Notes under the pieces: generated by a model | Told to the model about the DNA's origin: nothing | The model's database searches: none | Seen by the model: only the letters and a program-made list of their open reading frames with translations | In this document: one piece after another, positions 6,647-28,897 of the stretch | Layout of the letters: the number at the start of each line of letters is the position of its first letter | Position numbering within the stretch: the first letter of the stretch is position 1 | Source of the DNA: Bradyrhizobium sp. CCGB12 | GTDB taxonomy: Bacteria > Pseudomonadota > Alphaproteobacteria > Rhizobiales > Xanthobacteraceae | Direction: 5' to 3' | Length of the DNA stretch: 64,000 nt | NCBI RefSeq assembly: GCF_024199845.1 | Contig: NZ_JANADO010000001.1 | Coordinates: forward strand, 4,712,001 to 4,776,000 | Position numbers and translations under genes: made by a program

Positions 6647-6710
6647 GTCAGTTTCCTCCCGAAGCTCTGCTTGATGTCAGGTTCAGTCTAGCCGCAGTCT
6701 CGTGCCGCGG

Positions 6711-10973: not shown

Positions 10974-11163
10974 GGTGAAAACCTTTTCTCGGAACTACCG
11001 ACAGCAAGCGGCTCGAGCGAAACTCGCGCACCGGGAGCCAACCGCGGGGTGGAAGCATGGTTCCGACTCGCCGAAGCACCGGGTCATTCGTGAACGCGGC
11101 GCTCAAAAAAGAAGCGCGGCACCGCGCGCCGCGCTTCAATGGTCTACGGGAAAGTGCGCACCT

Positions 11164-11322
11164 TCAGTGCGTCTTGGTCTCGTGCCAATTTTCGAGATCG
11201 GGCTTGGCCTGGTCCGATCCCTGCTCTTTCTCCGGATTGCCCTTCCAGGGCTTGTCCGTCTGCCTGTGCGAGCCCCAGTCGTTCTGATCCCGGGGATCGT
11301 CGGTCGGCCGTTCCTTGCTCAT
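11164..11322 (-). CDS. Small hydrophilic stress-type protein
   Basis: A 52-residue, highly charged protein with no predicted structure (Asp, Lys, Glu, Gln, Trp rich; DDPRDQNDWGSHRQTDKPWK). The start is fixed by an AGGGAGA Shine-Dalgarno sequence 7 nt upstream. It lies 22 nt downstream of the PRC-barrel gene on the same strand and probably shares its transcript. The composition resembles small disordered proteins of the rhizobial general stress regulon. No domain recognised. Confidence 0.65.
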   Translation of the reverse strand: MSKERPTDDPRDQNDWGSHRQTDKPWKGNPEKEQGSDQAKPDLENWHETKTH

Positions 11323-11344
11323 CGGATCTCCCTTTTCGTAAGGC

Positions 11345-11719
11345 CTATGCGAAGGGAACACCATAATAGGAGTTGATGCCGCGAACCGTGGCATCATCAC
11401 CCCAGTTCCAATCGCTCCGATCGCCATATTTCGGCGCGCCTTCCAACTCCTTGGTGGTGATGCCCGTGACATAGCCGCCAAGCTCAGTGTCATATTTCAG
11501 CGATTGCCAGGGCAGCGGATAATGGTCGTTGCCGAGACCCAGAAAACCGCCAAAGCCGAGCACCGCGTACGACACCTTGCCGCTGATCTTGTCGATCATC
11601 ACGCGTTCGATCGAACCTATGCGGTTGCGATCGGCACCGTAGACAGATGTTCCCTCGACCTTGTCGCTGCCGATCAACCGGCCCATCTCGCTGCGATCCA
11701 GCTCACCTTGATTCAACAT
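11345..11719 (-). CDS. PRC-barrel domain protein
   Basis: A 124-residue protein with one PRC-barrel domain (about residues 12-85). The pattern is LIGSDKVEGTSVYGADRNRIGSIERVMIDKISGKVSYAVL in two pieces, followed by the typical aromatic LPWQSLKYD segment. Cytoplasmic PRC-barrel proteins of this type are common members of alphaproteobacterial stress regulons; the biochemical role is unknown. A GGAAC-N17-AGTT promoter candidate lies 33-58 nt upstream. Probably the first gene of a two-gene unit with the 52-residue protein. Confidence 0.88.
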   Translation of the reverse strand: MLNQGELDRSEMGRLIGSDKVEGTSVYGADRNRIGSIERVMIDKISGKVSYAVLGFGGFLGLGNDHYPLPWQSLKYDTELGGYVTGITTKELEGAPKYGDRSDWNWGDDATVRGINSYYGVPFA

Positions 11720-11751
11720 CTCGCGTCTCCACTCAGCCAGTATGTGGGACC

Positions 11752-11777
11752 AACTTGCACGCGGGGGCGATCGTTCC
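11752..11777 (-). promoter_or_regulatory. EcfG-type promoter candidate
   Basis: On the minus strand, GGAAC (11777-11773), a 17-nt spacer and AGTT (11755-11752). The alphaproteobacterial EcfG consensus is GGAAC-N16/17-CGTT. The predicted start gives a leader of about 25 nt before the PRC-barrel gene. Confidence 0.55.
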
Positions 11778-11811
11778 CGATGGCGCGGTGCGGCATCTCG
11801 CGGCCCCGAAA

Positions 11812-11836
11812 GGAACATCGCCGGAAACGCGCTGTT
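11812..11836 (+). promoter_or_regulatory. EcfG-type promoter candidate
   Basis: GGAAC-N16-TGTT pointing toward the gene at 11959. The leader would be about 115 nt, which is long and leaves room for a short reading frame (see findings). Confidence 0.4.
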
Positions 11837-11958
11837 CTTGATGTCTCACCATTTTCACTCGCCTTGATGAAGGGCGATCCGAAGCAGAGCGGGATGATCA
11901 AGGGAGCAGCGCGGCAGGTGTTCGAATTGATCCTGCCCGGAAAGCAATGAGGTGAACC

Positions 11959-12186
11959 ATGAGCGATTTCCGCGATATCCAGCACGGCGTCAACGACCCC
12001 GTCGACGGCGTCGACGTGAGATGGCAGTTCAACGACAACCGAACGCCGCATGAGCGGGCGCAGCGCCACGCCGACGTGCGCGCCAACGCGACCGCCATAT
12101 CGGCGGAGCCGTTTCTGCCCGAGCGGCTTCGACGCAAGCCGACCGATCCCATCAATCCGCGCACGGGACGCAATCCCACGGATTAG
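11959..12186 (+). CDS. Small hypothetical hydrophilic protein
   Basis: A 75-residue, charged protein without signal peptide or membrane segment (DIQHGVNDPVDGVDVRWQF at the N-terminus, proline-rich PERLRRKPTDPINPRTG at the C-terminus). It has a good GAGGTG Shine-Dalgarno sequence 5 nt before the ATG and normal codon usage for the genome, supporting a real gene. It lies between two genes behind GGAAC-type promoters, so a stress role is likely but unproven. Confidence 0.65.
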   Translation: MSDFRDIQHGVNDPVDGVDVRWQFNDNRTPHERAQRHADVRANATAISAEPFLPERLRRKPTDPINPRTGRNPTD

Positions 12187-12192
12187 TAGTTA

Positions 12193-12217
12193 GGAACCTC
12201 GGTCTTTGCGACGTGTT
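12193..12217 (+). promoter_or_regulatory. EcfG-type promoter candidate
   Basis: GGAAC-N16-TGTT upstream of the DUF4142 gene at 12272, with an expected leader of about 48 nt. One mismatch from the -10 consensus CGTT. Confidence 0.55.
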
Positions 12218-12271
12218 GATCGGCGCAACGTGGCGGCGAGTGGCCGCGCGACCAGTTGGAGGGACCGGACC

Positions 12272-12823
12272 ATGAAACGTACCATCGTCGCCATTGCTTG
12301 CGTGCTTCTCGCAGGCCCCGCATTGGCCCAATCGCTGGGCGAGAAGACCGGCGTCAATTCGGCGCTCGGCGTCGCGCCAACCACCGCCGACTTCGTCAAG
12401 GAGGTGGCGATCAGCGACATGTTCGAGATCGAATCGAGCAAGCTCGCTGAGCAGAAGGGCAACGCGCAGGAGAAATCCTTCGCGCAACAGATGGTCACCG
12501 ATCACACCAAGACCAGCAGCGAGCTGAAGGGATTGGTCGGCAATGGCAAGGTCCAGGCAACGCTGCCGACGGCGCTCGACAGCTCGCACCAAAGCAAGCT
12601 CGACAAGCTCAAGAGCGCGACCGGCAAGGACTTCAGCTCGGACTACAATTCCTACCAGGTCAGCGCTCATGAAGACGCCGTCTCCCTGTTCGACCGCTAC
12701 GCCAAGGGCGGCGACAATGCGGCGCTGAAGGATTGGGCCGGCAAGACGCTGCCGGCGCTGAAGCACCATCTCGACATGGCCAAGGAGCTCGGCAAGGCGC
12801 CGAGCGTCGGTCAGTCCAAATAG
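12272..12823 (+). CDS. DUF4142 periplasmic protein
   Basis: A 183-residue protein with a signal peptide (KRTIVAIACVLLAGPALA, cleaved near residue 19) and a DUF4142 four-helix domain. The domain pattern is FVKEVAISDMFEIESSKLA, then FAQQMVTDHTKTSSEL and a helix pair ending LPALKHHLDMAK. DUF4142 is a ferritin-like-fold family found in the periplasm, function unknown. The start was chosen by the GGAGGG Shine-Dalgarno sequence and the signal peptide, not the upstream in-frame ATG. A paralogue lies at 17121. A GGAAC-type promoter precedes it. Confidence 0.9.
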   Translation: MKRTIVAIACVLLAGPALAQSLGEKTGVNSALGVAPTTADFVKEVAISDMFEIESSKLAEQKGNAQEKSFAQQMVTDHTKTSSELKGLVGNGKVQATLPTALDSSHQSKLDKLKSATGKDFSSDYNSYQVSAHEDAVSLFDRYAKGGDNAALKDWAGKTLPALKHHLDMAKELGKAPSVGQSK

Positions 12824-12837
12824 GTCTTCTAGACCGG

Positions 12838-12860
12838 GGACGCCGACCTCGCCGGCGTCC
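12838..12860 (+). terminator. Hairpin after the DUF4142 gene
   Basis: GGACGCCG..CGGCGTCC, an 8-bp stem with a 7-nt loop, 15 nt after the stop codon, followed by TCCTCGCCTT. The T-run is weak, so it is a possible terminator only. Confidence 0.5.
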
Positions 12861-13032
12861 TCCTCGCCTTGGCAACGATGCCTTTCTCCGCACGTTGAGA
12901 TCGCAGGCTCGCGGAGATCCTACTGGCACAGCCAGACAAGACCTCGATATCCACCGGCACGTCGTCCGGGCCGCGAGCGCAACGCGCGCGGCGGCTTCGC
13001 TGGCATCCTCAACCGCGAAAGGAGATACGTCC

Positions 13033-13923
13033 ATGGCCGAGCACGACCTGATCAATCCCGTCAGCCGCTATCCGAAGCCTCCGTTCAAGAAGCAGTCGCA
13101 GCCATGGCCGGGTCTTGCCGGCAAGATGGAGCCGCGGCCGGATCACGGCGAGACCAGCTACAAGGGCTCCGGCCGGCTCGCTGGCCGCAAGGCGTTGATC
13201 ACCGGGGGCGATTCCGGCATGGGCCGCGCCGCCGCGATCGCCTATGCGCGCGAAGGCGCCGATGTCGCCATCAACTATCTGCCGGCGGAAGAGACCGATG
13301 CGCAGGAGGTGATCGCACTGATTAAAAAGGAAGGACGCACCGGACTTGCGATCCCCGGCGACCTCAACGACGAAGCCTTTTGCAAGCAGCTGGTCGAGCG
13401 GGCCGCGCAAGGCCTCGGCGGCCTCGACATCATCGTCAACAACGCAGCGCGGCAGCAGGCGCGCGCCTCCATCCTCGAGGTCTCGTCGGAGGACTTCGAC
13501 GCGACCATGAAGACGAACGTCTACGCACCGTTCTGGATCATCAAGGCGGCACTGCCGCATCTCAAGCCTGGCTCCTGCATCATCGGCACGACCTCGGAGC
13601 AGGCTTACGACCCCTCGCCCGATCTCTACGACTACGCGCAGACCAAGGCAGCGACGATGAACTATGTGAAGTCGCTGGCGAAGCAGCTCGCCTCCAAAGG
13701 CATCCGCGTCAATGGAGTCGCGCCCGGGCCGATCTGGACGCCGCTCCAGGTCTCCGGCGGCGCCACGATGGAGAAGCTGGAAAAGTTTGGCAGCATGACG
13801 CCGCTCGGGCGTCCCGGCCAGCCAGTCGAGCTCGCTTCGATCTACGTGCAGCTTGCCGCAGCTGATGCCAGCTACGCGACCGGGCAGGTTTATGGCTCCG
13901 CCGGAGGATCCGGACAGCCATAG
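13033..13923 (+). CDS. SDR oxidoreductase (YhxC/YdaD general-stress type)
   Basis: A 296-residue short-chain dehydrogenase of the long N-terminal-extension group found in Bacillus YhxC/YdaD/YghA-type stress proteins. The first about 45 residues (PPFKKQSQPWPGL) are typical of that group. The Rossmann motif is TGGDSGMGRAAAIAYAREGA, NNAAR replaces NNAG, and the catalytic Ser and YDYAQTK (Tyr and Lys) are intact. The C-terminus has the GQVYGSAGG motif. It probably reduces an aldehyde or ketone using NADP(H). The start follows a GGAGA Shine-Dalgarno sequence. It lies among general-stress-type genes. Confidence 0.92.
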   Translation: MAEHDLINPVSRYPKPPFKKQSQPWPGLAGKMEPRPDHGETSYKGSGRLAGRKALITGGDSGMGRAAAIAYAREGADVAINYLPAEETDAQEVIALIKKEGRTGLAIPGDLNDEAFCKQLVERAAQGLGGLDIIVNNAARQQARASILEVSSEDFDATMKTNVYAPFWIIKAALPHLKPGSCIIGTTSEQAYDPSPDLYDYAQTKAATMNYVKSLAKQLASKGIRVNGVAPGPIWTPLQVSGGATMEKLEKFGSMTPLGRPGQPVELASIYVQLAAADASYATGQVYGSAGGSGQP

Positions 13924-13930
13924 TCGCGGC

Positions 13931-13953
13931 GCCGCGGGCTGATACCCCGCGGC
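13931..13953 (+). terminator. Hairpin after the SDR gene
   Basis: GCCGCGGG-CTGATAC-CCCGCGGC is a perfect 8-bp stem starting 7 nt after the SDR stop. There is no T-run, so it may be a processing or Rho-dependent end. Confidence 0.5.
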
Positions 13954-14025
13954 TAGAACTCAGGAACCTTCGCTGTCTGCGAGCTTTTACAAAACTGTCA
14001 TGGAGGAAATGTCGCCGGCAGACCG

Positions 14026-14601
14026 ATGGCACTCGTAACCGTCAAACCCACCCGGATCGATACGGCGATCGCGAACGAGATCGCAGACAACACCAACTCG
14101 GGCCTTGAGCACGCCGCCCAGGCCTTGACCTGGGGTGCCGATGAGCACGTGCTCGTCGCACTCGCCGCGGCGGGATGGCTCTACACCCGGATGCGGCGAC
14201 CGCAGAGGCGTCGCATCGCCGATCACGTCCTGATGGTATCGCTGGCGACGGCCGTGCTGCCGCATGTTCTGAAATCCCTGTTCGATCAGACGAGGCCGGA
14301 CCGGCTGACGATGAGCGGCCACCGGCACGGTATTCCCTATTCGGGGCGCCCCCGCGATGCGTTTCCCTCAGGCCACGCCGTGCACATGGGCGCCCTCGCC
14401 TCGGCCGCCGACCTGCTGCCCCCGGCCTCGCGCCGTTTGGCGCGCTCGCTTGCCGTGACGTTATCGTTGACGCGCGTGGCGCTGCTCGCGCATTGGGCCA
14501 GCGACGTGGTGGCGGGCTTCACCCTTGGCGTCATCGTCGAGCGACTTTTCAGGCCGTTCACACTGGCAAGGTCGCGGCAGCAGCGGCGGGTACGGCGATG
14601 A
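14026..14601 (+). CDS. PAP2-family lipid phosphatase-like membrane protein
   Basis: A 191-residue membrane protein with the three PAP2 phosphatase motifs: KSLFDQTRP (K-x6-RP), PSGHA, and TRVALLAHWASD (R-x5-H-x3-D). These enzymes remove phosphate from membrane lipids such as phosphatidic acid or undecaprenyl pyrophosphate, with the active site near the membrane face. It is the first gene of a compact three-gene unit: its stop overlaps the next start by 4 nt. Confidence 0.9.
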   Translation: MALVTVKPTRIDTAIANEIADNTNSGLEHAAQALTWGADEHVLVALAAAGWLYTRMRRPQRRRIADHVLMVSLATAVLPHVLKSLFDQTRPDRLTMSGHRHGIPYSGRPRDAFPSGHAVHMGALASAADLLPPASRRLARSLAVTLSLTRVALLAHWASDVVAGFTLGVIVERLFRPFTLARSRQQRRVRR

Positions 14602-14945
14602 CGGAGTATCTCGTGCGATTCGTCGCTGGCGGCCTGATCGTCTCCTTGTTCGCGATCGTCGGCGACATGCTGAAGCCCAAGAGCTTTGGCGGGCTCCTCG
14701 GTGCCGCGCCGTCGGTCGCTCTCGCTACGCTTGGCATCGCGGTCGCTCAGCACGGCCCGCACTATGCCGCGGCCGAGAGCTGGACCATGATCTACGGCGC
14801 GGTCGCCCTCGCGTGCTACAGCGTCGCCGTCTGCCATCTCCTGATGAGATTTCGTCTCGGGGCGCTGCCGGCTACCATCCTTGCGTTTATCGTATGGCTT
14901 GCGGTCGCCTTCGGCCTGCTCGCGGGCTTCGGAGGCGCTGCCTGA
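14598..14945 (+). CDS. DUF3147-family membrane protein
   Basis: A 115-residue protein with four predicted helices and almost no loops. The N-terminus EYLVRFVAGGLIVSLFAIVG and the segment KPKSFGGLLGAAPSVAL are typical of DUF3147. The ATG overlaps the PAP2 stop (ATGA), and its own stop overlaps the next start (TGATG), so the three genes are translationally coupled. Function unknown; a paralogue follows directly. Confidence 0.82.
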   Translation: MTEYLVRFVAGGLIVSLFAIVGDMLKPKSFGGLLGAAPSVALATLGIAVAQHGPHYAAAESWTMIYGAVALACYSVAVCHLLMRFRLGALPATILAFIVWLAVAFGLLAGFGGAA

Positions 14946-15430
14946 TGCTAGTCAAGCTGTCATCATCCGCGCTCCAGCAGACGCATTGGCACGAATACGC
15001 CGTGCGCTTCGTGCTTGGCGGCCTGGCGACGGTCGCGACAGGCCTCATCGCCAGCCATTTCGGCGTCGCGATCGGAGGGCTCTTTCTCGCGCTTCCCGCC
15101 ATCTTCTGCGCCAGCGCGACGCTGATCGAAAGCCATGAACGCCGCACGAAGGAAAAGGCCGGCCTCAGCGGACGAAGACGCGGGCAGCAGGCCGCAGCGT
15201 TGGACGCAGCGGGCGCCAGTCTCGGAAGTATCGGCCTCGCAGCATTCGCGGCGACCTTCTACGTCGTGGTATCGGCAAGCATCATCGGGGCATTCGGCGC
15301 CGCCATCCTGGCCTGGGCCCTGGTGTCCGTGTCCGCATGGTGGGTGAGGCGGAAGCTTCGCATCACCTCGGGCCGCGCGCAGGCCGAACGCGGGGCGCGA
15401 TCAGCGAGGGGCTGGAGCTTCTTGCCGTAG
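14945..15430 (+). CDS. DUF3147-like membrane protein, extended paralogue
   Basis: A 161-residue membrane protein related to its neighbour: EYAVRFVLGGLATVATGLIA and GVAIGGLFLALPAIF mirror the preceding DUF3147 protein. After two helices comes a charged cytoplasmic loop (HERRTKEKAGLSGRRRGQQ), then two more helices and a basic tail. It starts one base inside the previous stop. The two paralogues may form a heteromer (inference). Its 3' end overlaps the convergent small gene at 15401 by 30 nt. Confidence 0.78.
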   Translation: MLVKLSSSALQQTHWHEYAVRFVLGGLATVATGLIASHFGVAIGGLFLALPAIFCASATLIESHERRTKEKAGLSGRRRGQQAAALDAAGASLGSIGLAAFAATFYVVVSASIIGAFGAAILAWALVSVSAWWVRRKLRITSGRAQAERGARSARGWSFLP

Positions 15431-15595
15431 CATCAGGAAATCGTACATCTCGGCGGCAGTCTGAAGCTGGTCGAGGCGCGCAACAACGGAATCGCGTTGC
15501 TGCCCGTCTGGAAGCCCCGCGATCTCGTGCTCGAGCCGCTGCCTCTGGGCGTCGAGGCGTTGCTCAAATGTGTGTGGCTCAGAGCGTCTTCGCAT
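15401..15595 (-). CDS. Small conserved helical protein
   Basis: A 64-residue charged protein beginning MRRRSEPHTFEQRLDAQRQR, with one long amphipathic helix region (QRLEHEIAGLPDGQQRDSVVARLDQLQTAAEMYDFL). The N-terminus matches a short protein type I recall as widespread in Bradyrhizobium genomes (memory, not searched). Function unknown. Its start lies 17 nt inside the end of another short gene (15579-15737), so the two are probably translated together; its end overlaps the convergent DUF3147-like gene. Confidence 0.72.
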   Translation of the reverse strand: MRRRSEPHTFEQRLDAQRQRLEHEIAGLPDGQQRDSVVARLDQLQTAAEMYDFLMLRQEAPAPR

Positions 15596-15737
15596 CGTCC
15601 GTCCTCGGTGGTTGCAGGCCCGGGCTGTTCACCCAGCGCTCGACTTCCTCGATGACCTTCTGATGGCTCGGACGCACAGGCCTCGGTGCACCTGCCTCCT
15701 CGGAAAGCTTGCGGGGTAACCTGACTTCATCCGTCAC
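15579..15737 (-). CDS. Short GTG-start protein upstream of and overlapping the MRRRSEP gene
   Basis: A 52-residue reading frame starting with GTG, preceded by a strong AGGGAGAGAGG Shine-Dalgarno sequence. The product ends WVNSPGLQPPRTDDAKTL. From memory, the W-x-x-SPGLQPP segment resembles the usual C-terminus of relatives of the neighbouring MRRRSEP protein, suggesting the two frames derive from one gene family. The C-terminal codons overlap the start of the next gene by 17 nt in another frame. Function unknown. Confidence 0.55.
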   Translation of the reverse strand: MTDEVRLPRKLSEEAGAPRPVRPSHQKVIEEVERWVNSPGLQPPRTDDAKTL

Positions 15738-15868
15738 GGCCTCTCTCCCTTTACAGGGAAATGCGGGAGCGTGCGACTAGTTCAATAATAACTTGTTGAT
15801 TTTGCTTGGTATTTTTACTCACTTGGGGATTTTTCCGACTCTTGTGGAACTCCGGTCAATGTCGTACA

Positions 15869-15885
15869 TTGAGTAAACTACTCAA
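15869..15885. promoter_or_regulatory. Perfect palindrome, probable RHH autoregulatory operator
   Basis: TTGAGTA-AAC-TACTCAA, a 7-bp perfect dyad, lies 25 nt before the ATG of the ribbon-helix-helix gene. A further CTCAA half-site follows immediately (15890-15894) and an ACTCA lies upstream, inside an unusually AT-rich 150-nt promoter region. Clustered half-sites are typical of RHH dimers binding cooperatively. Confidence 0.6.
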
Positions 15886-15909
15886 CTTGCTCAATTTGCG
15901 TGATTGACC

Positions 15910-16158
15910 ATGAACGACCTTCGCGCCGAGCGCCTCCAGGTCATGCTTTCGCCGGAAGAGTTGGCCGCCGTTGATGATTTCCGGTTTAGACACCGCATGC
16001 CGACGCGCGCGGCAGCTGTCCGCGAACTCCTCAAATTCGGGCTAGCCGCAGCAGGCGTCGATGCGGCAGCCGGCGTGAAGTCGAGCAGTTTTGGCGTATT
16101 CGGCCGCGGACCAGACGGACATACTCAGGGCGATCCCGACGGCGAGGCCGAGAAGTAA
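15910..16158 (+). CDS. Ribbon-helix-helix DNA-binding protein
   Basis: An 82-residue protein. Residues 5-50 form a MetJ/Arc-type ribbon-helix-helix: the strand RLQVMLSPEELAAVDDFRF, then RMPTRAAAVRELLKFGL as the second helix. The C-terminal 30 residues are Gly/Asp-rich and probably flexible. It likely binds the palindrome in its own promoter as a dimer or tetramer. There is no toxin-like partner next to it, so a toxin-antitoxin role is not supported. The ATG was chosen; an in-frame TTG two codons upstream also exists. Confidence 0.8.
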   Translation: MNDLRAERLQVMLSPEELAAVDDFRFRHRMPTRAAAVRELLKFGLAAAGVDAAAGVKSSSFGVFGRGPDGHTQGDPDGEAEK

Positions 16159-16181
16159 CCGATAGAGCGGCTCACAAACAA

Positions 16182-16211
16182 ACGGCCCCGGCACGGGGGT
16201 GCCGGGGCCGT
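16182..16211 (+). terminator. Strong GC hairpin after the RHH gene
   Basis: A 13-bp perfect stem (ACGGCCCCGGCAC / GTGCCGGGGCCGT) with a GGGG loop, 23 nt after the stop. There is no clear T-run, but the stem is long enough to end or protect the transcript. Confidence 0.65.
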
Positions 16212-16301
16212 CCTTGGAGATTGCTTCCGGCGCACCGGGGGCATGACAGCCGGAAGCATCCCATCGACTCTTCGCGCCGAGATTCGTTCCTCGTAGGCGC
16301 G

Positions 16302-16505
16302 CTAGCCCGTCGCGTCGTTTGAACCGTCCGGCATCGCGCCGGAGCCTGGCGTCTTACTGTCGTCGTTCAGCTTGGGATCGCGTGTCGCCTCGCGCGAGGG
16401 CGAGCCTTTGGGATCCGTCTTGTGAACGGACTGCGCACGCTCTTTGTCCCGCGGCTGCTCCTCTGCCCGCTTGTCCTTGACGATGCCGTGGTCGGAATGG
16501 GCCAT
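16302..16505 (-). CDS. Small disordered hydrophilic protein
   Basis: A 67-residue, Asp/Lys/Ser-rich protein with no hydrophobic segment (MAHSDHGIVKDKRAEEQ at the N-terminus, GSGAMPDGSNDATG at the end). It resembles small stress-induced disordered proteins. A GGGAG Shine-Dalgarno sequence and a GGAAC-N16-CGTA promoter giving a leader of about 28 nt support expression in the general stress response. No domain recognised. Confidence 0.65.
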   Translation of the reverse strand: MAHSDHGIVKDKRAEEQPRDKERAQSVHKTDPKGSPSREATRDPKLNDDSKTPGSGAMPDGSNDATG

Positions 16506-16539
16506 GATCTGCTCCCGCCTCTTTGATGTTCGAAGCGGT

Positions 16540-16564
16540 TACGCGCTGGCGCGTCGATTGTTCC
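16540..16564 (-). promoter_or_regulatory. EcfG-type promoter candidate
   Basis: On the minus strand, GGAAC (16564-16560), a 16-nt spacer and CGTA (16543-16540), correctly placed for the gene starting at 16505. Confidence 0.6.
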
Positions 16565-16582
16565 GGGCGAGAGGGCCTGGCA

Positions 16583-16714
16583 CTAACTATGTGCCGCATG
16601 GATCGCAGCCGATGCATTTTCCAGATGCACCTGCCGCACCGTCGTCACCGTCGCGAACGCGACCGAGACGCCAAAAGCGAGAATCAGTGAAAGAAGAGCC
16701 AGACGTGGAGCCAT
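16583..16714 (-). CDS. 43-residue exported or membrane microprotein
   Basis: A short frame with an ideal AAGGAGG Shine-Dalgarno sequence 6 nt before its ATG. The product starts MAPRLALLSLILAFGVSVAF, a hydrophobic segment able to act as signal anchor or signal peptide, followed by a short polar tail with His and Val. Too short for family recognition. Its promoter-distal end abuts the GGAAC promoter of the next gene on the same strand. Confidence 0.5.
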   Translation of the reverse strand: MAPRLALLSLILAFGVSVAFATVTTVRQVHLENASAAIHAAHS

Positions 16715-16830
16715 TGCAACCTCCTTCTGGAATCGAAAATCAACGCGATCGACTGTTCACGGATTATCCTGGATTTGTCTCTTGCATTCCGTGCGCGGTC
16801 TCACACACGGCGTCACGACGGCGAGAGCGT

Positions 16831-17025
16831 CTAGCTGTCCTGCTTTAAGGAGATATGGACCCTCACCGGCGGGATCTCTCCGTCGAGCCAATCCTGTTCG
16901 GTCGCAAGCGCCGTCCAGGCGTCCGCCATGCGCGAATAGCGCCTATAGGCGGGTTTCCCTTCGGCCCGCTCGGCGAGCTGAAGACAATTATCGGCGTTAT
17001 CTCTGAAGATGTCAGACTGTTTCAT
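16831..17025 (-). CDS. Small conserved helical protein
   Basis: A 64-residue protein with a pattern common in short rhizobial proteins: a helix with spaced Asn/Cys/Leu/Ala (DNADNCLQLAERAEGKPAYR), then YSRMADAWTALATEQDWLDG. It is similar in size and style to the ENVRRYR proteins at 34665 and 51117. Function unknown. It is divergent from the DUF4142 gene at 17121. No strong Shine-Dalgarno sequence was seen. Confidence 0.65.
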   Translation of the reverse strand: MKQSDIFRDNADNCLQLAERAEGKPAYRRYSRMADAWTALATEQDWLDGEIPPVRVHISLKQDS

Positions 17026-17120
17026 GCGGAAGACGTGGGGGCGGAACTCCCGGGTCGCAATGCCCCTTACCGGATCGTAACGTTCGGGGAACTTCGCAGG
17101 TCATCCGTCATTAGGTAACG

Positions 17121-17633
17121 ATGCGAGTTCTCGTCGCCATAGTCCTGGCATTCATCAGCACCGCCGCGCTTGCCGACAGCACCGGCGAGCGACAGCTTGG
17201 CCACGGCGCGCCGAGCGCAACCGACGTCATCAGCGGCCTCTATACCTTCAGTCGATTCCAGCAGGGTCTGCTGGAGAGTACCGACCTGAAGGGCAACGCG
17301 GAGGTCAAGAACCTTGCCGCCCTGCGCGCCGAAGAAGCGGCCAAGCGCGACAAGACGTTGAAACAGATTCAAGAGAGGATCGGTGCGGAGCCGCGCGCCA
17401 GCAAGACGAATTCGGTAAGCGCGGGCCTCGTCGAACCCGACACTTCGGATGGACCGGCTTACGTCAGAAGCTTTTATGCCTCGCAGATTCCCGAATATGA
17501 CACGGCGATCGATCTGCTCGAACGCTATCTGAAGGCGCCCGACAATGCTGCGCTTGCGGCGTTCGCACGCGAGCAGCTCCCGATGCTGCGTGCGCAGGTC
17601 AAGGCTGCCGAACGCACCATGGCGGACAAGTAG
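17121..17633 (+). CDS. DUF4142 periplasmic protein, paralogue
   Basis: A 170-residue protein with a signal peptide (RVLVAIVLAFISTAALA, cleavage near residue 18) and a DUF4142 helical domain. Weak helix 1 is followed by EVKNLAALRAEEAAKRDKTL and the closing helices YDTAIDLLERYLKAPDNAAL and QLPMLRAQVKAAERTM. It is more divergent than the paralogue at 12272. The start codon lies only about 9 nt after a possible -10, so the promoter is unresolved. Confidence 0.82.
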   Translation: MRVLVAIVLAFISTAALADSTGERQLGHGAPSATDVISGLYTFSRFQQGLLESTDLKGNAEVKNLAALRAEEAAKRDKTLKQIQERIGAEPRASKTNSVSAGLVEPDTSDGPAYVRSFYASQIPEYDTAIDLLERYLKAPDNAALAAFAREQLPMLRAQVKAAERTMADK

Positions 17634-17639
17634 CCGCCT

Positions 17640-17924
17640 TTACTTCGGACGTTGCTGGCTCTCCGGCCGCACCGTCCGGTTGCTCTCGGGCATCCTGTCC
17701 CGGCCTCCATCCCCGTTGTCATCCTTGCCGCCCGAGGTCGAGGTGCCACTGCCGCTCGGGTTCGATCGGTTGGCCGTCCCCGTGGTCGGGGTATCCGCAC
17801 GGGGCGTCGCCGAGCTTGCGGCGGGATCGCCGGTCACGGCCCCGCGGCCGCTGGGCTCGCCGCCCTGTGCAAGGGCCGATCCGGCAAACAACATGGCGAT
17901 GATCGCAGCCAATCCAGCTTTCAT
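17640..17924 (-). CDS. Secreted Ser/Gly/Pro-rich small protein
   Basis: A 94-residue protein: a signal peptide (KAGLAAIIAMLFAGSALA, cleavage near residue 19) and a disordered mature part with low-complexity Thr/Ser/Gly/Asn/Arg. A strong AGGAG Shine-Dalgarno sequence and an ideally placed GGAAC-N16-TGTT promoter (leader about 20 nt) mark it as stress-induced. It is convergent with the DUF4142 gene, 6 nt away. Confidence 0.75.
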   Translation of the reverse strand: MKAGLAAIIAMLFAGSALAQGGEPSGRGAVTGDPAASSATPRADTPTTGTANRSNPSGSGTSTSGGKDDNGDGGRDRMPESNRTVRPESQQRPK

Positions 17925-17949
17925 TTGCGCACTCCTGTCTGTGCTGGCT

Positions 17950-17974
17950 AACAGCAGGGCTGCTGCTCCGTTCC
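17950..17974 (-). promoter_or_regulatory. EcfG-type promoter candidate
   Basis: On the minus strand, GGAAC (17974-17970), a 16-nt spacer and TGTT (17953-17950), 26 nt before the start codon at 17924. Confidence 0.6.
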
Positions 17975-18022
17975 GAAAGGAGTCTGCCCGAGGGGAGCTC
18001 CGAATCTCTTTTGAACCGGTGT

Positions 18023-18047
18023 GGAACCAATCCGGGGGATCGAAGTT
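18023..18047 (+). promoter_or_regulatory. EcfG-type promoter candidate upstream of the poly-HAMP kinase
   Basis: GGAAC-N16-AGTT, about 138 nt before the kinase ATG. A sigma-70-like TTGACA lies at 18049-18054, so the kinase may have two promoters. The long leader makes this one of the weaker candidates. Confidence 0.35.
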
Positions 18048-18184
18048 GTTGACACCGGGCTGAGCAAAGCAGGTTCCAACTTCTCGCGCCGCACCTTGGC
18101 GCTTGATTTCGAATTAGGCTGACGCTCTATTTTGACCAAACGCGTCACGCCAGGATACGGCCGACGCCTGCGCGGGGAATCAGT

Positions 18185-24481
<6,297 letters not shown>

Positions 24482-24494
24482 GTTGGATTTGCGA

Positions 24495-25985
24495 ATGGAC
24501 CACGAAAAGGTCAACATCCTGCTCGTCGACGATCAGCCCGCCAAGCTGCTCGCTTATGAGGTGATATTGAAGGATCTCGGCGAGAACCTCGTGATCGCCT
24601 CGTCTGGACGCGAGGCGCTGGAGGTTCTGCTCAAGACCGAGATCGCCGTAATCCTGGTCGACGTCTGCATGCCCGAGCTCGACGGCTTCGAGCTCGCCGC
24701 GATGATCCGCGAGCATCCGCGCTTCCAGAAGACCGCGATGATCTTCATCTCGGCCATTCAGGTGAGCGACATCGACCGGTTGCGCGGCTACGAGATGGGC
24801 GCGGTCGACTACGTTCCGGTGCCCGTCGTGCCGGAAGTGCTGCGCGCCAAGATCAAGGTGTTCTCCGAACTCTATCGCAAGACCCGGGAGCTCGAGCGGC
24901 TGAACCAGGAGCTCGAGGACCGCGTCCGCGCGCGCACCGCCGAGCTGGAAAGCTCCACCGCCAAGCTGCGCGAGAGCGAGCAGCGGCGCAGCATGGCGAT
25001 CGCCGCCGGCAAGATGGGCTCTTGGGATTGGGACTGGATCACCGGCGACTGGATGTGGGACGAGGGGCAATATCGCATCTTCGGGGTCAGCCCGGAGATC
25101 TTCGAGGTCAACCCGGCCAACGTTCAGGCGCTGTTGCATCCCGATGACGTCGATCAGTTGCGCAAGGCGATCGCCGAGTTCAACAGCGGCACGCGCGCCT
25201 ATGAAACGGAGTTCCGCATTGTGCGGCCCGACGGCGAGATACGCTGGTGCGTCGGCACGGCGGCCGCAACTGTGGATCATAGCAGCCGCGTGGTGCGGGT
25301 GAGCGGCGTCACGGTGGACATCACCGAACGCAAGCGCGCGGAGGAGCGGCAGAACCTGCTCGCGCGGGAAGTCGATCATCGCGCCAAGAATGCGCTAGCG
25401 CTGGCGCAGTCGATCGTGCGCCTCACCCGTGCCGACGAGGTCAAGGCCTATGTCAATGCCGTCGAGGGACGCATCAATGCGCTCGCGCGCGTGCACACCA
25501 TCCTGTCGCTGTCGAGCTGGCAGGGCGCCGAGCTCTCCAAGCTGATCGACGAGGAGCTTGCACCCTATTCGCTGGGTGGCCAGATCAGGTTGTCGGGCCC
25601 CGAGGTTCAATTGCTGCCGGCGACCGCCCAGACGCTGGCGCTCGCTATGCACGAGCTTTTCACCAACTCGGCCAAGTATGGCGCGCTTTCGACGCGATCC
25701 GGGCGGCTCATGATCGGGTGGCAGGTCGAGGACGAGCTCCTCACGCTGACCTGGGAGGAATCCGGCGGCCCGCTCGTCAGGACGCCGAAAGCCCGCGGCT
25801 TCGGAACGCGGAGCCTGCTAGCGAGCGTCGAGTCCCAGCTCGGCGGGCGGGCGCAATTCGATTGGCGCACCGAGGGCCTGTTGTGCCGTCTGGAGGTGCC
25901 GTTGAAACGCAAGCCGGCGGCAACGACCGCACCCGGCAAATTCGATGCCGCCGACGCGACCGAATTGCAGCGCGCGTCCGGCTAG
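24495..25985 (+). CDS. Receiver-PAS-HWE histidine kinase
   Basis: A 496-residue cytoplasmic protein: an N-terminal REC domain (phospho-Asp56 in VILVDVCMPELDG), a coiled coil (about 125-165), a PAS domain (about 170-285, MGSWDWDWITGDWMWDEGQ), and an HWE-type kinase core with phospho-His295 (EVDHRAKN) and an ATP-binding region (HELFTNSAKYGALS, GFGTRSLL). The REC lysine normally found in the K-P motif is Val109 (DYVPVPVVPE), as in a recognised subgroup. HWE/HisKA2 kinases often phosphorylate PhyR to start the general stress response. The close link to the poly-HAMP kinase suggests a phosphorelay between the two (inference). The stop overlaps the convergent small gene's stop. Confidence 0.93.
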   Translation: MDHEKVNILLVDDQPAKLLAYEVILKDLGENLVIASSGREALEVLLKTEIAVILVDVCMPELDGFELAAMIREHPRFQKTAMIFISAIQVSDIDRLRGYEMGAVDYVPVPVVPEVLRAKIKVFSELYRKTRELERLNQELEDRVRARTAELESSTAKLRESEQRRSMAIAAGKMGSWDWDWITGDWMWDEGQYRIFGVSPEIFEVNPANVQALLHPDDVDQLRKAIAEFNSGTRAYETEFRIVRPDGEIRWCVGTAAATVDHSSRVVRVSGVTVDITERKRAEERQNLLAREVDHRAKNALALAQSIVRLTRADEVKAYVNAVEGRINALARVHTILSLSSWQGAELSKLIDEELAPYSLGGQIRLSGPEVQLLPATAQTLALAMHELFTNSAKYGALSTRSGRLMIGWQVEDELLTLTWEESGGPLVRTPKARGFGTRSLLASVESQLGGRAQFDWRTEGLLCRLEVPLKRKPAATTAPGKFDAADATELQRASG

Positions 25986-26233
25986 CCGGAGGCCGCGCTC
26001 GTCATGCGCTGCTCCGTCCGTGGCTCGCGCGGGACTCGTCCTTCGAGCCAGGCTTCCGTTCGGGCGAGATCGCGTAGTGCCTTCGCATAGCGCCGAGCCG
26101 CGCTTCTTTCCGCGCCGCGCGGCAGCTTGCGCGCCTTGCGCAGGATGTCTGCGGCCGCGTTGCGATAGGCCAGCGAGCGGTACAGAAAGACTACCTTGCC
26201 CATATCGAATGTTCCCGTGTTGATGCCGCTCAT
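25982..26233 (-). CDS. Small basic helical protein
   Basis: An 83-residue basic protein with a helical core (VVFLYRSLAYRNAAADILRKARKLPRGAER in two stretches, then RRYAKALRDLARTEAWLEG). The codon usage is normal. Starts at MSGINTG (26233) or MGKVVFLY (26203) are both possible. Its stop TAG shares the CTAG palindrome with the stop of the HWE kinase. Function unknown; similar short proteins occur in bradyrhizobia to my memory. Confidence 0.65.
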   Translation of the reverse strand: MSGINTGTFDMGKVVFLYRSLAYRNAAADILRKARKLPRGAERSAARRYAKALRDLARTEAWLEGRVPREPRTEQRMTSAASG

Positions 26234-26291
26234 CTTCGCAAGCCCGGCATGAACGTCGGATGAAGCAGGCGATGACAATTCCTTCATCCAG

Positions 26292-26316
26292 ATGGAACCA
26301 GAGAATGTCGCGCGCG
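26292..26316 (+). promoter_or_regulatory. EcfG-type promoter, perfect consensus
   Basis: GGAAC-N16-CGTT matches the EcfG consensus exactly. The predicted start near 26323 leaves a 21-nt leader before the ATG at 26344. Confidence 0.75.
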
Positions 26317-26343
26317 TTTGCATGCCAGATCGGGACATCGTCC

Positions 26344-26601
26344 ATGCGCACGAAGAAGTCGTCGGACCTGATCTCTCCCACCGGCCTCATCAAGCTGATG
26401 ACACACGCGATGATGGGCGCAGCCCTCGGCCTCGCTTTCAGCCTCGTACTCATTCTGTTCAATCCGGCCGTGGCCAACCTGCTGAGTCACGGCGGAAGCC
26501 AGGCCGTCATTGTCTTCGCCCTCACCTTGGTGACGACCTTCGCGATCGGCACGACGCTGACCGGCCTCGTGTTCATCCTGGAAGAGAACAAGCAATCTTG
26601 A
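26344..26601 (+). CDS. Small two-helix membrane protein
   Basis: An 85-residue protein with two predicted membrane helices (about residues 20-42, MGAALGLAFSLVLILF; and 54-78, AVIVFALTLVTTFAIGTTLTG) joined by a short Gly/Ser loop, a basic N-terminus and an acidic tail. The start was chosen because it follows a perfect EcfG promoter by 21 nt. Function unknown; expected in the inner membrane during stress. Confidence 0.75.
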   Translation: MRTKKSSDLISPTGLIKLMTHAMMGAALGLAFSLVLILFNPAVANLLSHGGSQAVIVFALTLVTTFAIGTTLTGLVFILEENKQS

Positions 26602-26685
26602 AGCGTGCGTGACGCGTGGAGTCGAACTCCTGCGACGAACCGCAGTTGGCCGCCTGCGTCAATTTAACTCAGGGAGTTCCCTCGC

Positions 26686-26919
26686 ATGAAGACGACCAAG
26701 CTCGCTCTCACCGTCATGCTGGCAACCGGCCTCGCCGCCGCGCCGTTCGCCGTGCAGGCGAAGTCGCACAAGGCAAAACATGGATCCTCGACATCATCGT
26801 CGCAGACCACAGGCGCCAACACGAAATCCAGCGGTGCTGCTAATCCCTCCAGCCAAGGCAATGTCGGCCCAGGTACCGACCAGGCCGGCAGCATGAGCAA
26901 GCCGAGCAGCTCGAAATAA
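26686..26919 (+). CDS. Secreted Ser/Gly/Thr-rich small protein
   Basis: A 77-residue protein: a signal peptide (KLALTVMLATGLAAAPFAVQA, cleavage near residue 25) and a low-complexity mature part of Ser, Lys, Gly, Asn and Thr. It is similar in style to the secreted protein at 17640. A CAGGGAG Shine-Dalgarno sequence precedes the ATG. It ends at a strong terminator. Confidence 0.72.
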   Translation: MKTTKLALTVMLATGLAAAPFAVQAKSHKAKHGSSTSSSQTTGANTKSSGAANPSSQGNVGPGTDQAGSMSKPSSSK

Positions 26920-26935
26920 GAGCATTCGCAACCGA

Positions 26936-26961
26936 GAAAGCCCCGCCGCGGCGGGGCTTTC
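26936..26961. terminator. Perfect palindromic terminator
   Basis: GAAAGCCCCGCCG / CGGCGGGGCTTTC, a 26-nt perfect palindrome 16 nt after the secreted protein's stop. With the A and T runs on either side it can work in both directions. Confidence 0.85.
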
Positions 26962-27098
26962 GTCATTGACAGTCATGTGGCGGCGCCGCGCTACTCATGG
27001 CACGCACCTGTCGGCATCCGATTTCGATGATCCCTCCCAGGAGTCGGGTGCCAGGAGTCGGGTGCGCGTACGCTTTGGCTGCGCCGGATGTCAGGATG

Positions 27099-27281
27099 TT
27101 AAGGCGCGCCCGAGAAACTTGTCTTGACGAGATGCTCGAGCTGCGCCCGCTTGCGTGCGATCAGGAGTTGGGCCGCAGCATCGTCGAGGCCTTCGCGCCG
27201 CAATTGTCGGATGGCGGAGCCCAGTTCGAGAATCTCGGCACGCAATTTCAGGATCCGGTAATTCTCCGGCTCTTCCTCCAC
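27099..27281 (-). CDS. Small helical protein, GTG start
   Basis: A 60-residue charged protein with a coiled-coil-like helix (RAEILELGSAIRQLRREG, then AAAQLLIARKRAQLEHLV). The GTG at 27281 is preferred because a GGAGG Shine-Dalgarno sequence lies 6 nt upstream and it falls 14 nt after the stop of the gene before it. An ATG at 27347 would overlap that gene by 52 nt. It forms a two-gene unit with 27296-27571. Function unknown. Confidence 0.55.
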   Translation of the reverse strand: MEEEPENYRILKLRAEILELGSAIRQLRREGLDDAAAQLLIARKRAQLEHLVKTSFSGAP

Positions 27282-27295
27282 CGCGGCCTCCGTTC

Positions 27296-27571
27296 TCAGC
27301 GGCGTGCCAAGACACGCGCTGGCTGGTCGACTTTCTTCAAGGAACAAAGACGCATCCGGTCGCGAACGTCAGGCAGGACGTCGCCGCCGCCGGCCGCCTT
27401 CCATTCGTCGATCAGCAGGTTGATTTTCCGGCGCAGATTGATCTGGGCCAGAGCCTGTTCGGTGCAGTCGCAATCGCCGTTGACGAGCTCGCGCACGGAT
27501 GCCTCGACGTCGGCCATTTCCAGCCTCAAGGCGCTGATCTTGCGTCGAATTTCATTAATTCTGTTGTCCAT
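27296..27571 (-). CDS. Small coiled-coil protein next to a LexA-like box
   Basis: A 91-residue charged protein; residues 1-65 form helices with heptad-like spacing (EIRRKISALRLEMADVEAS, then ALAQINLRRKINLLIDEWKA) and a CDC motif near residue 35. From memory it resembles short bradyrhizobial proteins of unknown function. A GAAC-N7-GAAC SOS-type box sits only 10 nt upstream of the ATG, so DNA-damage control is likely. First gene of a two-gene unit. Confidence 0.65.
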   Translation of the reverse strand: MDNRINEIRRKISALRLEMADVEASVRELVNGDCDCTEQALAQINLRRKINLLIDEWKAAGGGDVLPDVRDRMRLCSLKKVDQPARVLARR

Positions 27572-27580
27572 GGCTTGTTA

Positions 27581-27595
27581 GAACAAAATAAGAAC
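27581..27595. promoter_or_regulatory. LexA (SOS) box candidate, alphaproteobacterial type
   Basis: GAAC-AAAATAA-GAAC (reverse strand GTTC-N7-GTTC) matches the alphaproteobacterial LexA consensus GTTC-N7-GTTC exactly. It lies in a short AT-rich divergent promoter between the genes at 27571 (minus) and 27634 (plus). Confidence 0.6.
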
Positions 27596-27633
27596 ATATA
27601 GTCAAGTCAGGATTTCAGGACGGGAGCAACGAC

Positions 27634-27828
27634 ATGCAGGTTCAGGCAAAATACGACGCCAGGGTTTTTCTTAGCGAGCAGATGACCCGGGCGCAGGGAT
27701 TGAGGTTGAAGCGGCTGAGCGAAGAGGCGTATCAGCCGGCGCAATATGCGCGGGATCTGTCCTTCGCCGAGGCTGCGCGGCGCATCGGGGTGCTGGAGGC
27801 GGAGATCGAGCTGGCGAATTCGTTCTAG
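27634..27828 (+). CDS. DUF3072-like small protein
   Basis: A 64-residue protein. The C-terminal 45 residues match the short DUF3072 pattern: M-T-x-x-Q in MTRAQGLRLKRLSEEAY, then the helix LSFAEAARRIGVLEAEIEL. A GGGAG Shine-Dalgarno sequence precedes the ATG. It is divergent from the coiled-coil gene across the LexA-like box and might be co-regulated. Function of the family unknown. Confidence 0.7.
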   Translation: MQVQAKYDARVFLSEQMTRAQGLRLKRLSEEAYQPAQYARDLSFAEAARRIGVLEAEIELANSF

Positions 27829-27829
27829 G

Positions 27830-27930
27830 GCATGATCCGGAAAAGTGTGCAGCGGTTTTCCGAAAAAGATCATGCTCAAACAATAACCGAAAGCGCGATG
27901 ATGATTCATCCTAATCTCATCGCGCTTTAG
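27830..27930. repeat. Palindromic intergenic repeat, family D
   Basis: Begins CATGATCCGGAAAAGTG and contains its inverted partner TTTTCCGAAAAAGATCATG, followed by a second hairpin AAAGCGCGATGA..TCATCGCGCTTT. This is a recognisable rhizobial intergenic element. Confidence 0.75.
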
Positions 27931-27968
27931 GCTGCCCTCACCCGCCCCGAGCTCGCACGCCTGCTTTC

Positions 27969-27993
27969 GGAACCATGCCAGTGTCGAACGGTT
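27969..27993 (+). promoter_or_regulatory. EcfG-type promoter candidate
   Basis: GGAAC-N16-GGTT, one mismatch from consensus, giving a leader of about 19 nt before the histone-like gene at 28019. Confidence 0.55.
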
Positions 27994-28018
27994 CTCTCTC
28001 GGCCAAGGGAGATTAGGC

Positions 28019-28303
28019 ATGGCACGCAAGGCAAAGAAGCGCCGCTACTCACGCAGCTCCGGGAGCGATGTCGAAAGCGAGATGCGGCGCTACAAGAAGG
28101 GTACCGCGAAGAGCGGACGTGGCGGTCGCGGCGGACGCGTGAAGAGCCGTAAGCAGGCCATCGCGATCGGGCTGTCGAAGGCCCGCAAGAAGGGCAAGAA
28201 GGTCCCGAAGAAGGCGTCGAAGCGGAAGACGTCCAAGAAGACCTCAAAGAAGAAAACTTCAAAGAAGTCGTCGACGCGCAGATCCACCAAACGGTCGCGC
28301 TGA
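28019..28303 (+). CDS. Lysine-rich DUF6496/histone H1-like protein
   Basis: A 94-residue, extremely basic protein. The N-terminal half (SDVESEMRRYKKGTAKSGRG, then KSRKQAIAIGLSKARKKGKK) matches the DUF6496 pattern found in stress-linked proteins. The C-terminal half is a histone-H1-like Lys/Ser/Thr tail of repeated K-K-T-S-K. It likely binds DNA or RNA and may compact the nucleoid under stress (inference). A GGAAC-type promoter precedes it. Confidence 0.82.
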   Translation: MARKAKKRRYSRSSGSDVESEMRRYKKGTAKSGRGGRGGRVKSRKQAIAIGLSKARKKGKKVPKKASKRKTSKKTSKKKTSKKSSTRRSTKRSR

Positions 28304-28309
28304 CCTCGG

Positions 28310-28672
28310 TCAGATCATGCTGCCCGGCATGAAGCAGCGGATCGAAATCCCGAACGCAGTCTTCACTGGCCACACCATGGTGCGGCCGGCGCGGTTCGGT
28401 TCGGTGATGACGGCTTCATCCGGCACCTCGACCCACTGCCCGTCCAGCCGGACACGGTAATGCCCGTTGTGCGATTCCCAATCGGGATCGGCGACGGCAA
28501 AACCGTCCGCATCCGAGCAGCACGGACCGAGGTTGCTGCGCAGGCTATCGAACCAGGGTTTCAGGGGCGAGTTCGCATAGCGGCCGTCGTCGCGCCCGAG
28601 CGCGCTTTCAGTCGGCAGCACGAACGACACCACGAATACTGCAATCACTAGCGAGAGCTTCAATCGATCCAT
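28310..28672 (-). CDS. Secreted hypothetical protein
   Basis: A 120-residue protein with an N-terminal hydrophobic signal (LKLSLVIAVFVVSFVLP). The mature part contains PWFDSLRSNLGPCCSDADG, a vicinal cysteine pair, and a third Cys near the C-terminus (ISIRCFMPG). The pattern (PWFDSL..CCSDADG..VRLDGQWVEVPDEAV) recurs in rhizobial periplasmic proteins of unknown function, to my memory. The ATG at 28672 was preferred over 28687 because the signal peptide fits better. Confidence 0.72.
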   Translation of the reverse strand: MDRLKLSLVIAVFVVSFVLPTESALGRDDGRYANSPLKPWFDSLRSNLGPCCSDADGFAVADPDWESHNGHYRVRLDGQWVEVPDEAVITEPNRAGRTMVWPVKTAFGISIRCFMPGSMI

Positions 28673-28897
28673 GTCGGCACCGATCAAATGCGAACCACCG
28701 GCCAGTTTTCAAAAAGCGGCGGGAGGGTTCGAAGTTCCACGCTTGCAACTCGACTCCGCGGCTACATTGCCGCAGAGCCCATAATGCTGGGAACTGTGAT
28801 CGGTGAACACGGCTTTTTCGGACGAACCGCGTCACCCACGCTGCCGTTAACGAGAATGTTATCGACGAGCTGTGGGAATCTCGAAGGCAAACAGGAA

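Follow-up and report, generated by a model that had tools for sequence, protein, structure and literature searches.

A 64-kb stretch of the 9.43-Mb genome of Bradyrhizobium sp. CCGB12 (G000:C1:4712001-4776000, referred to below as the window) encodes a poly-HAMP hybrid histidine kinase and, directly downstream, a REC-PAS-HWE histidine kinase, surrounded by small genes that are frequently preceded by sites of the form recognized by EcfG, the sigma factor of the general stress response. The explanation we consider probable is that this is a general-stress-response locus, in which an EcfG-controlled sensor module, arranged like AskB/AskC of Myxococcus xanthus, would feed the regulator PhyR via its HWE kinase. 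The promoter-like sites and their conservation across species are established, and we infer that EcfG is the sigma factor that uses them.

The exact motif, GGAAC-N16/17-NGTT, occurs ten times in the window, where dinucleotide shuffles (n=100) gave a mean of 2.11 and none of the 100 reached ten. Nine of these sites fall between positions 11000 and 28303 (17.3 kb, an interval picked after the sites were seen), in which the genome average would predict 0.86; the density thus exceeds the genome average, and equality with that average is what the first-pass annotation had set against its own proposal of a regulon cluster around the kinases. In the whole genome, there are 468 occurrences of the motif and 545 of the reversed pattern, and because these raw counts reveal no genome-wide excess, the position of sites relative to genes must be used. 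Sites were counted if they were intergenic and within 250 nucleotides (nt) upstream of a called start, with the same automatic gene caller applied to the window and to a background of 79 other 20-kb stretches of the same genome (1.58 Mb in total; six adjoin the window). Seven such sites are present in the window and 23 in the background, corresponding to 109 and 14.6 per Mb, an approximately sevenfold difference (Poisson P 5e-5); the sites at 17950 and 18023 are absent from the seven because the gene caller missed those starts. Three control patterns (the reversed motif, a spacer of 10/11 and a spacer of 22/23) yielded no gene-upstream sites in the window, and their background densities were 1.9 to 3.8 per Mb. 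As expected of an EcfG regulon, the gene-upstream motif is therefore above background, and density, position and conservation across species all support the proposed cluster. The background is uneven, and since one stretch (L038, 2.85-2.87 Mb) holds ten motifs, four of them upstream of genes, the window is not the sole cluster of this kind in the genome. Together with L136 (G000:C1:2864001-2884000), L038 constitutes a second dense group of EcfG-type motifs around small genes.

Conservation was assessed in two samples. The larger comprises 80 loci, the best 80 of 242 confirmed relatives of the window's HWE kinase, with names that are nearly all Bradyrhizobium (a few are titled Bradyrhizobiaceae, Alphaproteobacteria bacterium or Frankia sp. 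RB7); the full 260 nt upstream of a gene were required, and identical upstream regions were counted once. The smaller comprises 20 first relatives, with denominators that vary by gene, as orthologues below 55% identity or with less than 100 nt of upstream sequence were left out for the first seven genes, and those below 40% identity for the remaining genes. The site at 18023, before the poly-HAMP gene, had been described as weak in the first-pass annotation, but is among the better conserved: among distinct relatives, NGTT is present in 60/69 and GGAAC-N16/17-NNTT in 69/69, while control patterns match in 0 to 1 of 69, and the site is perfect in 16/20 first relatives. Spacer alignments covered four genes. 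At the poly-HAMP site, the GGAAC columns are 100% conserved and the two terminal T of the -10 element 99-100%, compared to 32-81% in the spacer columns; upstream of gene 16302, conservation in parts of the spacer equals that of the motif.

No motif is found directly upstream of the HWE kinase gene in any of the 80 relatives (0/20 first relatives), and this, together with the 13-nt gap between the genes, indicates that the two kinases are probably co-transcribed. The leader between the site and the poly-HAMP ATG (18048-18184) is itself strongly conserved, including a GGTTCCA block, and has no Rfam match. A scan places a terminator-like hairpin at 18086-18102. A sigma-70 promoter in this leader, which seemed possible by eye, was not returned by a consensus scan.

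The 2098-residue poly-HAMP kinase consists of HAMP repeats (11 stretches), GAF, HisKA and HATPase_c domains and three RECs. No transmembrane stretch is evident (best 19-residue hydropathy 1.6, compared to 2.7 for a membrane-protein control), and with its many HAMP domains, HisKA and RECs the protein fits the description of a group III-like kinase. An HWE core was looked for in this protein and is absent; because the core is HisKA and not HWE, a route through its partner is likelier for this kinase than direct action on PhyR. The second kinase contains REC, PAS_3 and HWE_HK (81.5 bits) domains and an HRAKN motif (VDHRAKN), which confirm that it belongs to the HWE/HRxxN class. The suggestion that both kinases are sensors feeding PhyR is thus supported, albeit not proven, for the HWE kinase, by its class, its promoter and a linkage seen in one genus (below), and is less likely in that direct form for the HisKA-type poly-HAMP protein. 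The receiver of the HWE kinase (24495-24980) is not canonical: receivers of this kind retain the acid pair, phospho-acceptor Asp and Ser, but the canonical Lys is Val in 32/32 pair-type RECs across families, the window's included. In 20/20 first relatives, as in the window, the two kinase genes start 6.3 kb apart, with the poly-HAMP gene first. An orthologue of the second kinase (at least 75% identity) is present in 34/35 same-genus relatives (not in G026), and in a different sample the REC is present in 14/15 genus members listed, the window's included (not in G706).

The pair also extends beyond the genus. With the 162-residue REC as query (E <= 1e-40), matches were found in 11/289 genomes of the class and 29/397 of the order, the window's included in both, and, for four selected orders or families, in 32/76, 19/43, 1/18 and 32/103 genomes. 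The 31 outside-genus loci that were fetched comprise 10/10 class-search hits and G058, 13 of the 14 other order-search hits (G687, which is cut, was left out) and 7 of 30 other hits from the search with 32/76 genomes. In 31/31, the C-terminus of a poly-HAMP protein is encoded directly upstream of the REC, with gaps, estimated from alignment ends, of 8-36 nt and once 221 nt. The output domain is of HWE type in 21 of these loci and of HisKA type in 10 (11 loci were labelled by Pfam and the other 20 by comparison with those 11), and both types occur inside a single family, f92 (G245 and G339). As the REC is constant and the output variable, the poly-HAMP kinase seems to bring its own receiver, the output of which is swapped in evolution.

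The genome of CCGB12 encodes PhyR, NepR and EcfG (NepR, and PhyR with adjacent extracytoplasmic function (ECF) sigma domains in L002) in one phyR-nepR-ecfG locus near 8.13 Mb, on the same contig and approximately 3.4 Mb from the pair, in agreement with the earlier statement that the three genes are not near the window; NepR was found in 28/31 pair-bearing genomes. In family f2, the pair is frequently a direct neighbor of these genes. The order in G496 and G650 is phyR (divergent), nepR, ecfG, poly-HAMP kinase and REC-HWE kinase, with PhyR_sigma2, PhyR_sigma-like, NepR and Sigma70_r2/r4_2 assigned by Pfam in both and HWE_HK in G496. Ten of 13 further f2 loci share the same core in the same order; these were drawn from the search with 32/103 genomes and none from that with 19/43, and their upstream parts (14 requested, one nonexistent) were compared by tblastn with the G496 proteins. 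Overall, 12/19 f2 loci have the phyR/nepR-ecfG core directly before the module and 15/19 have an EcfG-type site, and in 12/12 core-linked loci the stretch after ecfG contains an exact site, placed 31-39 nt ahead of where the poly-HAMP gene is estimated to begin. In 10 of these 12, the REC gene was placed by REC search alone, and the output type is taken from G496 and G650 only. As the pair adjoins the master genes of the stress response in a related group, it is a strong candidate for one switch of that response.

Three other HWE-type f2 loci (G410, G636 and G471; 3 of 21 HWE-type loci) have as their next gene a single-domain receiver with the motif PF[VI]FATGYG. In the window and stretches L002-L081, L135-L138 and L273-L279 of its genome, there is one match to the FATGUY motif and no free-standing receiver of this type. 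That sole PFxFATG match lies in a 950-residue open frame that also holds an HWE kinase, at G000:C1:4856667 (-) in L049.

In the model that we favor, EcfG would transcribe the small stress genes together with a two-gene sensor operon, the latter from 18023. The first product would be a cytoplasmic, group III-like poly-HAMP hybrid kinase, and the second its dedicated partner, a REC fused to PAS-HWE. It may be that the poly-HAMP kinase detects an intracellular stress, perhaps osmotic, although this is a guess by analogy with group III kinases, and that its RECs bind or phosphorylate the atypical REC of the partner. The partner REC would then switch the HWE kinase, and phosphate could reach PhyR directly or via a single-domain regulator. 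Phosphorylated PhyR would take NepR off EcfG, and EcfG would in turn make more sensor, closing a feedback loop. The sign of such a loop cannot be told, but by analogy, a negative loop is held likely for SigT control of lovK/lovR (PMC5964349). More tentatively, it is quite possible that the soluble poly-HAMP class as a whole is a dedicated sensor for the general stress response, looped through EcfG and acting via a Lys-less receiver fused to HWE (toward PhyR) or to HisKA (toward other pathways).

Several observations weigh against this model. The Lys-to-Val replacement could mean that phosphorylation plays no part in switching the REC. In ten genus members that are more distantly related, the -10 element of the poly-HAMP site is NGTT in 0/10 and NATT in 7, with GGAAC kept (G030, a poor match, and G016 and G035, cut loci without a match, were left out of this count). 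The nepR-ecfG side of the window genome's own phyR locus has two GGAAC-N-AATT sites and no NGTT, which suggests that NATT may be a working form of the -10 element. Of the loci outside the genus, 8/18 of HWE type and 1/8 of HisKA type have the motif before the poly-HAMP gene (five contig-cut loci, G146, G237, G305, G613 and G724, are left out), and family f92 mostly lacks it (1/7 HWE-type). A tie between HWE output and an EcfG site in these loci was considered and rejected as not significant (Fisher P 0.13). The pair is far from phyR in the window's genome, and no NepR was found in 3/31 pair genomes (G289, G750 and G772). All 12 core-linked loci come from a single genus, g279, of which 14 loci were examined, and the linkage, though strong, may thus reflect one evolutionary event; five f2 loci from other genera lack the core, and NepR or EcfG lies beside the pair in none of 20 loci of other families. 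Finally, the support for the model comes from sequence.

It is also possible, albeit unlikely, that the pair is a target of EcfG and not an input, i.e. a stress-induced output that acts on some other regulator, such as one of motility or the envelope. Pairs with HisKA output exist (10/31), and action on PhyR cannot be assumed for those. Additionally, Sphingomonas is reported to have an orphan hybrid kinase that depends on EcfG (PMC6599016), and with 13 HWE_HK matches in the genome of CCGB12, other kinases could serve PhyR. However, the kinase in the window is of the HWE/HRxxN class, the pair stands beside phyR/nepR-ecfG in more than half of the f2 loci, albeit in one genus, and a FATGUY-type regulator adjoins it in 3/21 HWE-type loci, all of which are easier to reconcile with an input into PhyR.

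We consider it quite improbable that a different ECF sigma factor with a GGAAC -35 element uses these promoters, which would place the cluster outside the PhyR/EcfG regulon. GGAAC-like -35 boxes are common to several ECF groups, and the lack of NGTT at the genome's own phyR locus is consistent with such a factor. However, GGAAC-N16-CGTT is the EcfG1 motif reported in R. etli (PMC3892343), the EcfG motif given for Sphingomonas is GGAAC-N17-20-GTT, with a PRC-barrel gene among the EcfG-regulated genes (PMC6599016), the published motif of B. japonicum EcfF differs (GTAAC-N14-15; PMC3420878), and in f2 the same motif follows ecfG, ahead of the poly-HAMP gene. That the sites arose by chance, in a region where short intergenic stretches abound, can be dismissed for most of them: although the motif is no commoner genome-wide than its reversal and two sites (11384 and 11812) are kept in few relatives, the shuffles, the background density, the empty controls, the near-universal conservation of most sites and the drift of the spacer between constant boxes at the poly-HAMP site all argue against it.

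Table 1. Kinase genes and EcfG-type promoter-like sites in the window, with conservation of the motif upstream of the corresponding gene in relatives.
Feature	Position	Strand	Match and distance	Conservation
Putative promoter of HlyD-family gene (9819-10973, -)	11040..11064	-	exact, 66 nt upstream	perfect in 5/5 relatives compared
Motif inside end of PRC-barrel gene	11384..11409	-	exact, 61 nt before a 52-aa open reading frame	perfect in 1/8
Putative promoter of PRC-barrel gene (11345-11719, -)	11752..11777	-	exact	perfect in 12/12
Site before tiny open reading frame and 75-aa gene 11959-12186	11812..11836	+	exact	perfect within 260 nt of gene 11959 in 4/13 (poorly kept)
Putative promoter of first DUF4142 gene (12272-12823)	12193..12217	+	exact, 54 nt	perfect in 11/12
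Weaker site before PAP2 gene 14026-14601	13963..13987	+	GGAAC-N16-CTTT	15 relatives: one mismatch in 11, perfect at a different place in 3, weaker in 1
Site before 82-aa gene 15910-16158	15846..15870	+	GGAAC-N16-CATT	NGTT in 57/64
Site before 67-aa protein gene (16302-16505, -)	16540..16564	-	GGAAC-N16-CGTA	NGTA in 65/66, NGTT in 0
Site before second DUF4142 gene 17121-17633	17088..17112	+	GGAAC-N16-CATT, 8 nt	N[GA]TT in 62/63, NGTT in 10/63; perfect in 5/13 first relatives
Putative promoter of 94-aa protein gene (17640-17924, -)	17950..17974	-	exact	NGTT in 41/44; perfect in 9/10 first relatives
Putative promoter of kinase operon	18023..18047	+	GGAAC-N16-AGTT, 137 nt before poly-HAMP ATG	see text
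Poly-HAMP hybrid histidine kinase, 2098 aa	18185..24481	+
REC-PAS-HWE histidine kinase, 496 aa	24495..25985	+	13 nt past poly-HAMP stop
Putative promoter of 85-aa gene 26344-26601	26294..26318	+	exact, perfect (CGTT)	NGTT in 71/72; perfect in 14/15 first relatives
Site before 77-aa gene 26686-26919	26623..26647	+	CGAAC-N16-AGTT; -35 altered in CCGB12	GGAAC-N16/17-NGTT in 63/63; 13/13 first relatives
Putative promoter of DUF6496 gene 28019-28303	27969..27993	+	exact	NGTT in 71/71; 15/15 first relatives
Weaker site before gene 28310-28674 (-)	28713..28738	-	GGAAC-N17-CTTT	GGAAC-N16/17-NNTT in 47/68, NGTT in 0/68

The first-pass annotation listed eight of these sites. Seven (11752-, 11812+, 12193+, 17950-, 18023+, 26294+ and 27969+) are exact matches, including the one it called perfect, which starts at 26294 and not at 26292; the eighth, 16540(-), ends in CGTA and not in NGTT, but it is this form that relatives keep. 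Three exact sites that it did not list, 1844(+), 11040(-) and 11384(-), lie outside its interval, and five weaker sites inside or just past that interval, at 13963, 15846, 17088, 26623 and 28713(-), are wholly or partly conserved. The distances of 19-50 nt from site to start that had been given apply only approximately: most are 25-54 nt, and the exceptions are 11812 (122 nt to gene 11959, or about 30 nt by eye to the tiny open reading frame) and 18023. Conservation of the sites from 11040 to 13963 comes from the 20 first relatives only, as these lie outside the 80-locus test, in which control patterns gave 0 to 3 matches per gene. Genes that lack a site in the window lack one in relatives as well: the motif is upstream of gene 14598 in 0/14 first relatives, of gene 14945 in 0/14 and of gene 27634 in 0/15 (0/71 in the 80-locus test). 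The SDR gene downstream of the first DUF4142 gene (13033-13923) has a motif of its own in 1/12 relatives.

A few sites merit separate comment. The motif at 11384 was rejected as a promoter and is probably there by chance. At 17088, the end of the -10 element lies 8 nt from the ATG of the second DUF4142 gene at 17121, and this distance is 7-8 nt in the 13 first relatives; if the site is used, the gene may possibly yield a leaderless stress transcript. The CGAAC at 26623 is possibly the recent loss of one promoter in CCGB12. The exact site at 1844-1868 (+) lies 31 nt before a 75-residue gene at 1900-2127.

EcfG-type motifs are found near HWE kinase genes elsewhere in the genome as well. In L135 (G000:C1:1162001-1182000), four such motifs and an HWE kinase gene (5892-7325) occur in 20 kb, with no motif within 1.5 kb upstream of that gene. 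In L137 (G000:C1:4510001-4526000), one of two divergent sites precedes a small gene with an HWE kinase gene after it, at 6753; this kinase is possibly under EcfG control. On the second contig (L274, G000:C2), the HWE kinase gene at 396844 (-) has a site 88 nt upstream.

Each element is known already: EcfG promoters, HWE kinases, a REC kinase downstream of a poly-HAMP kinase, and control of kinase genes by a stress sigma factor. The B. diazoefficiens kinase paper of Wulser et al. (2022) may include the HWE kinase of the window. Among the titles and abstract openings that searches of the open-licence literature listed, we found none that ties poly-HAMP kinases to NepR, PhyR or the PhyR pathway; a paper on HAMP domains and NepR (PMC11481889) deals with a different kinase. 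The general stress response is reported to be required for efficient symbiosis (PMC8092242), and the sensors and signals upstream of PhyR are largely open in nitrogen-fixing bacteria. The present analysis offers a conserved two-gene candidate sensor with its putative promoter, shows that a different genus has it linked to the core genes, and adds a family of Lys-less receivers. If the model is correct, poly-HAMP kinases, associated in fungi with osmotic signaling and fungicide action, would be tied to a bacterial stress sigma factor.

The closest known system is the alphaproteobacterial general stress response itself (PhyR-NepR-EcfG), with the Paks of Sphingomonas and PhyK/LovK of Caulobacter, which the locus resembles in its HRxxN kinase, EcfG-type promoters and small stress genes. 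Members of the HWE/HRxxN class are reported to phosphorylate PhyR in Sphingomonas (PMC5898713), and control of kinase genes by the stress sigma factor is described for SigT acting on phyK and lovK in Caulobacter (PMC5964349). What sets the window apart from those systems is the giant poly-HAMP partner of its HWE kinase and the N-terminal REC of the HWE kinase, which is atypical, Lys-less and kept across families. The soluble poly-HAMP hybrid layout recalls the fungal group III kinases of osmotic signaling (Nik1/TcsC/Bos1), but these act in the high-osmolarity glycerol (HOG) pathway and have no HWE partner. Fungal group III hybrid kinases have one REC.

In gene layout, the nearest parallel is the ambruticin-sensing AskA/AskB-AskC system of Myxococcus xanthus, in which AskB is a poly-HAMP protein and the hybrid kinase gene askC is immediately downstream (PMC7643160); the window has the same arrangement of a REC kinase gene directly after a poly-HAMP gene. 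The likeness is one of gene layout. Binding of AskA Rec3 to the AskC receiver is reported from a two-hybrid test (PMC7643160), which is the kind of contact the model would require between the two kinases here. However, the Ask proteins are described as acting on development via MrpC/FruA, whereas the pair in the window has an HWE output and an EcfG-type promoter. A further parallel is the MrrA/SdrG phosphorelay, of which PFXFATG(G/Y) is a mark and in which upstream kinases likewise act through a receiver step on the kinase or phosphotransferase that activates PhyR (PMC5964349). The receiver in the window differs in being fused to the HWE kinase and in lacking both the FATGUY motif and the Lys, yet a regulator gene of the MrrA/SdrG type adjoins the pair in the three f2 loci described above.

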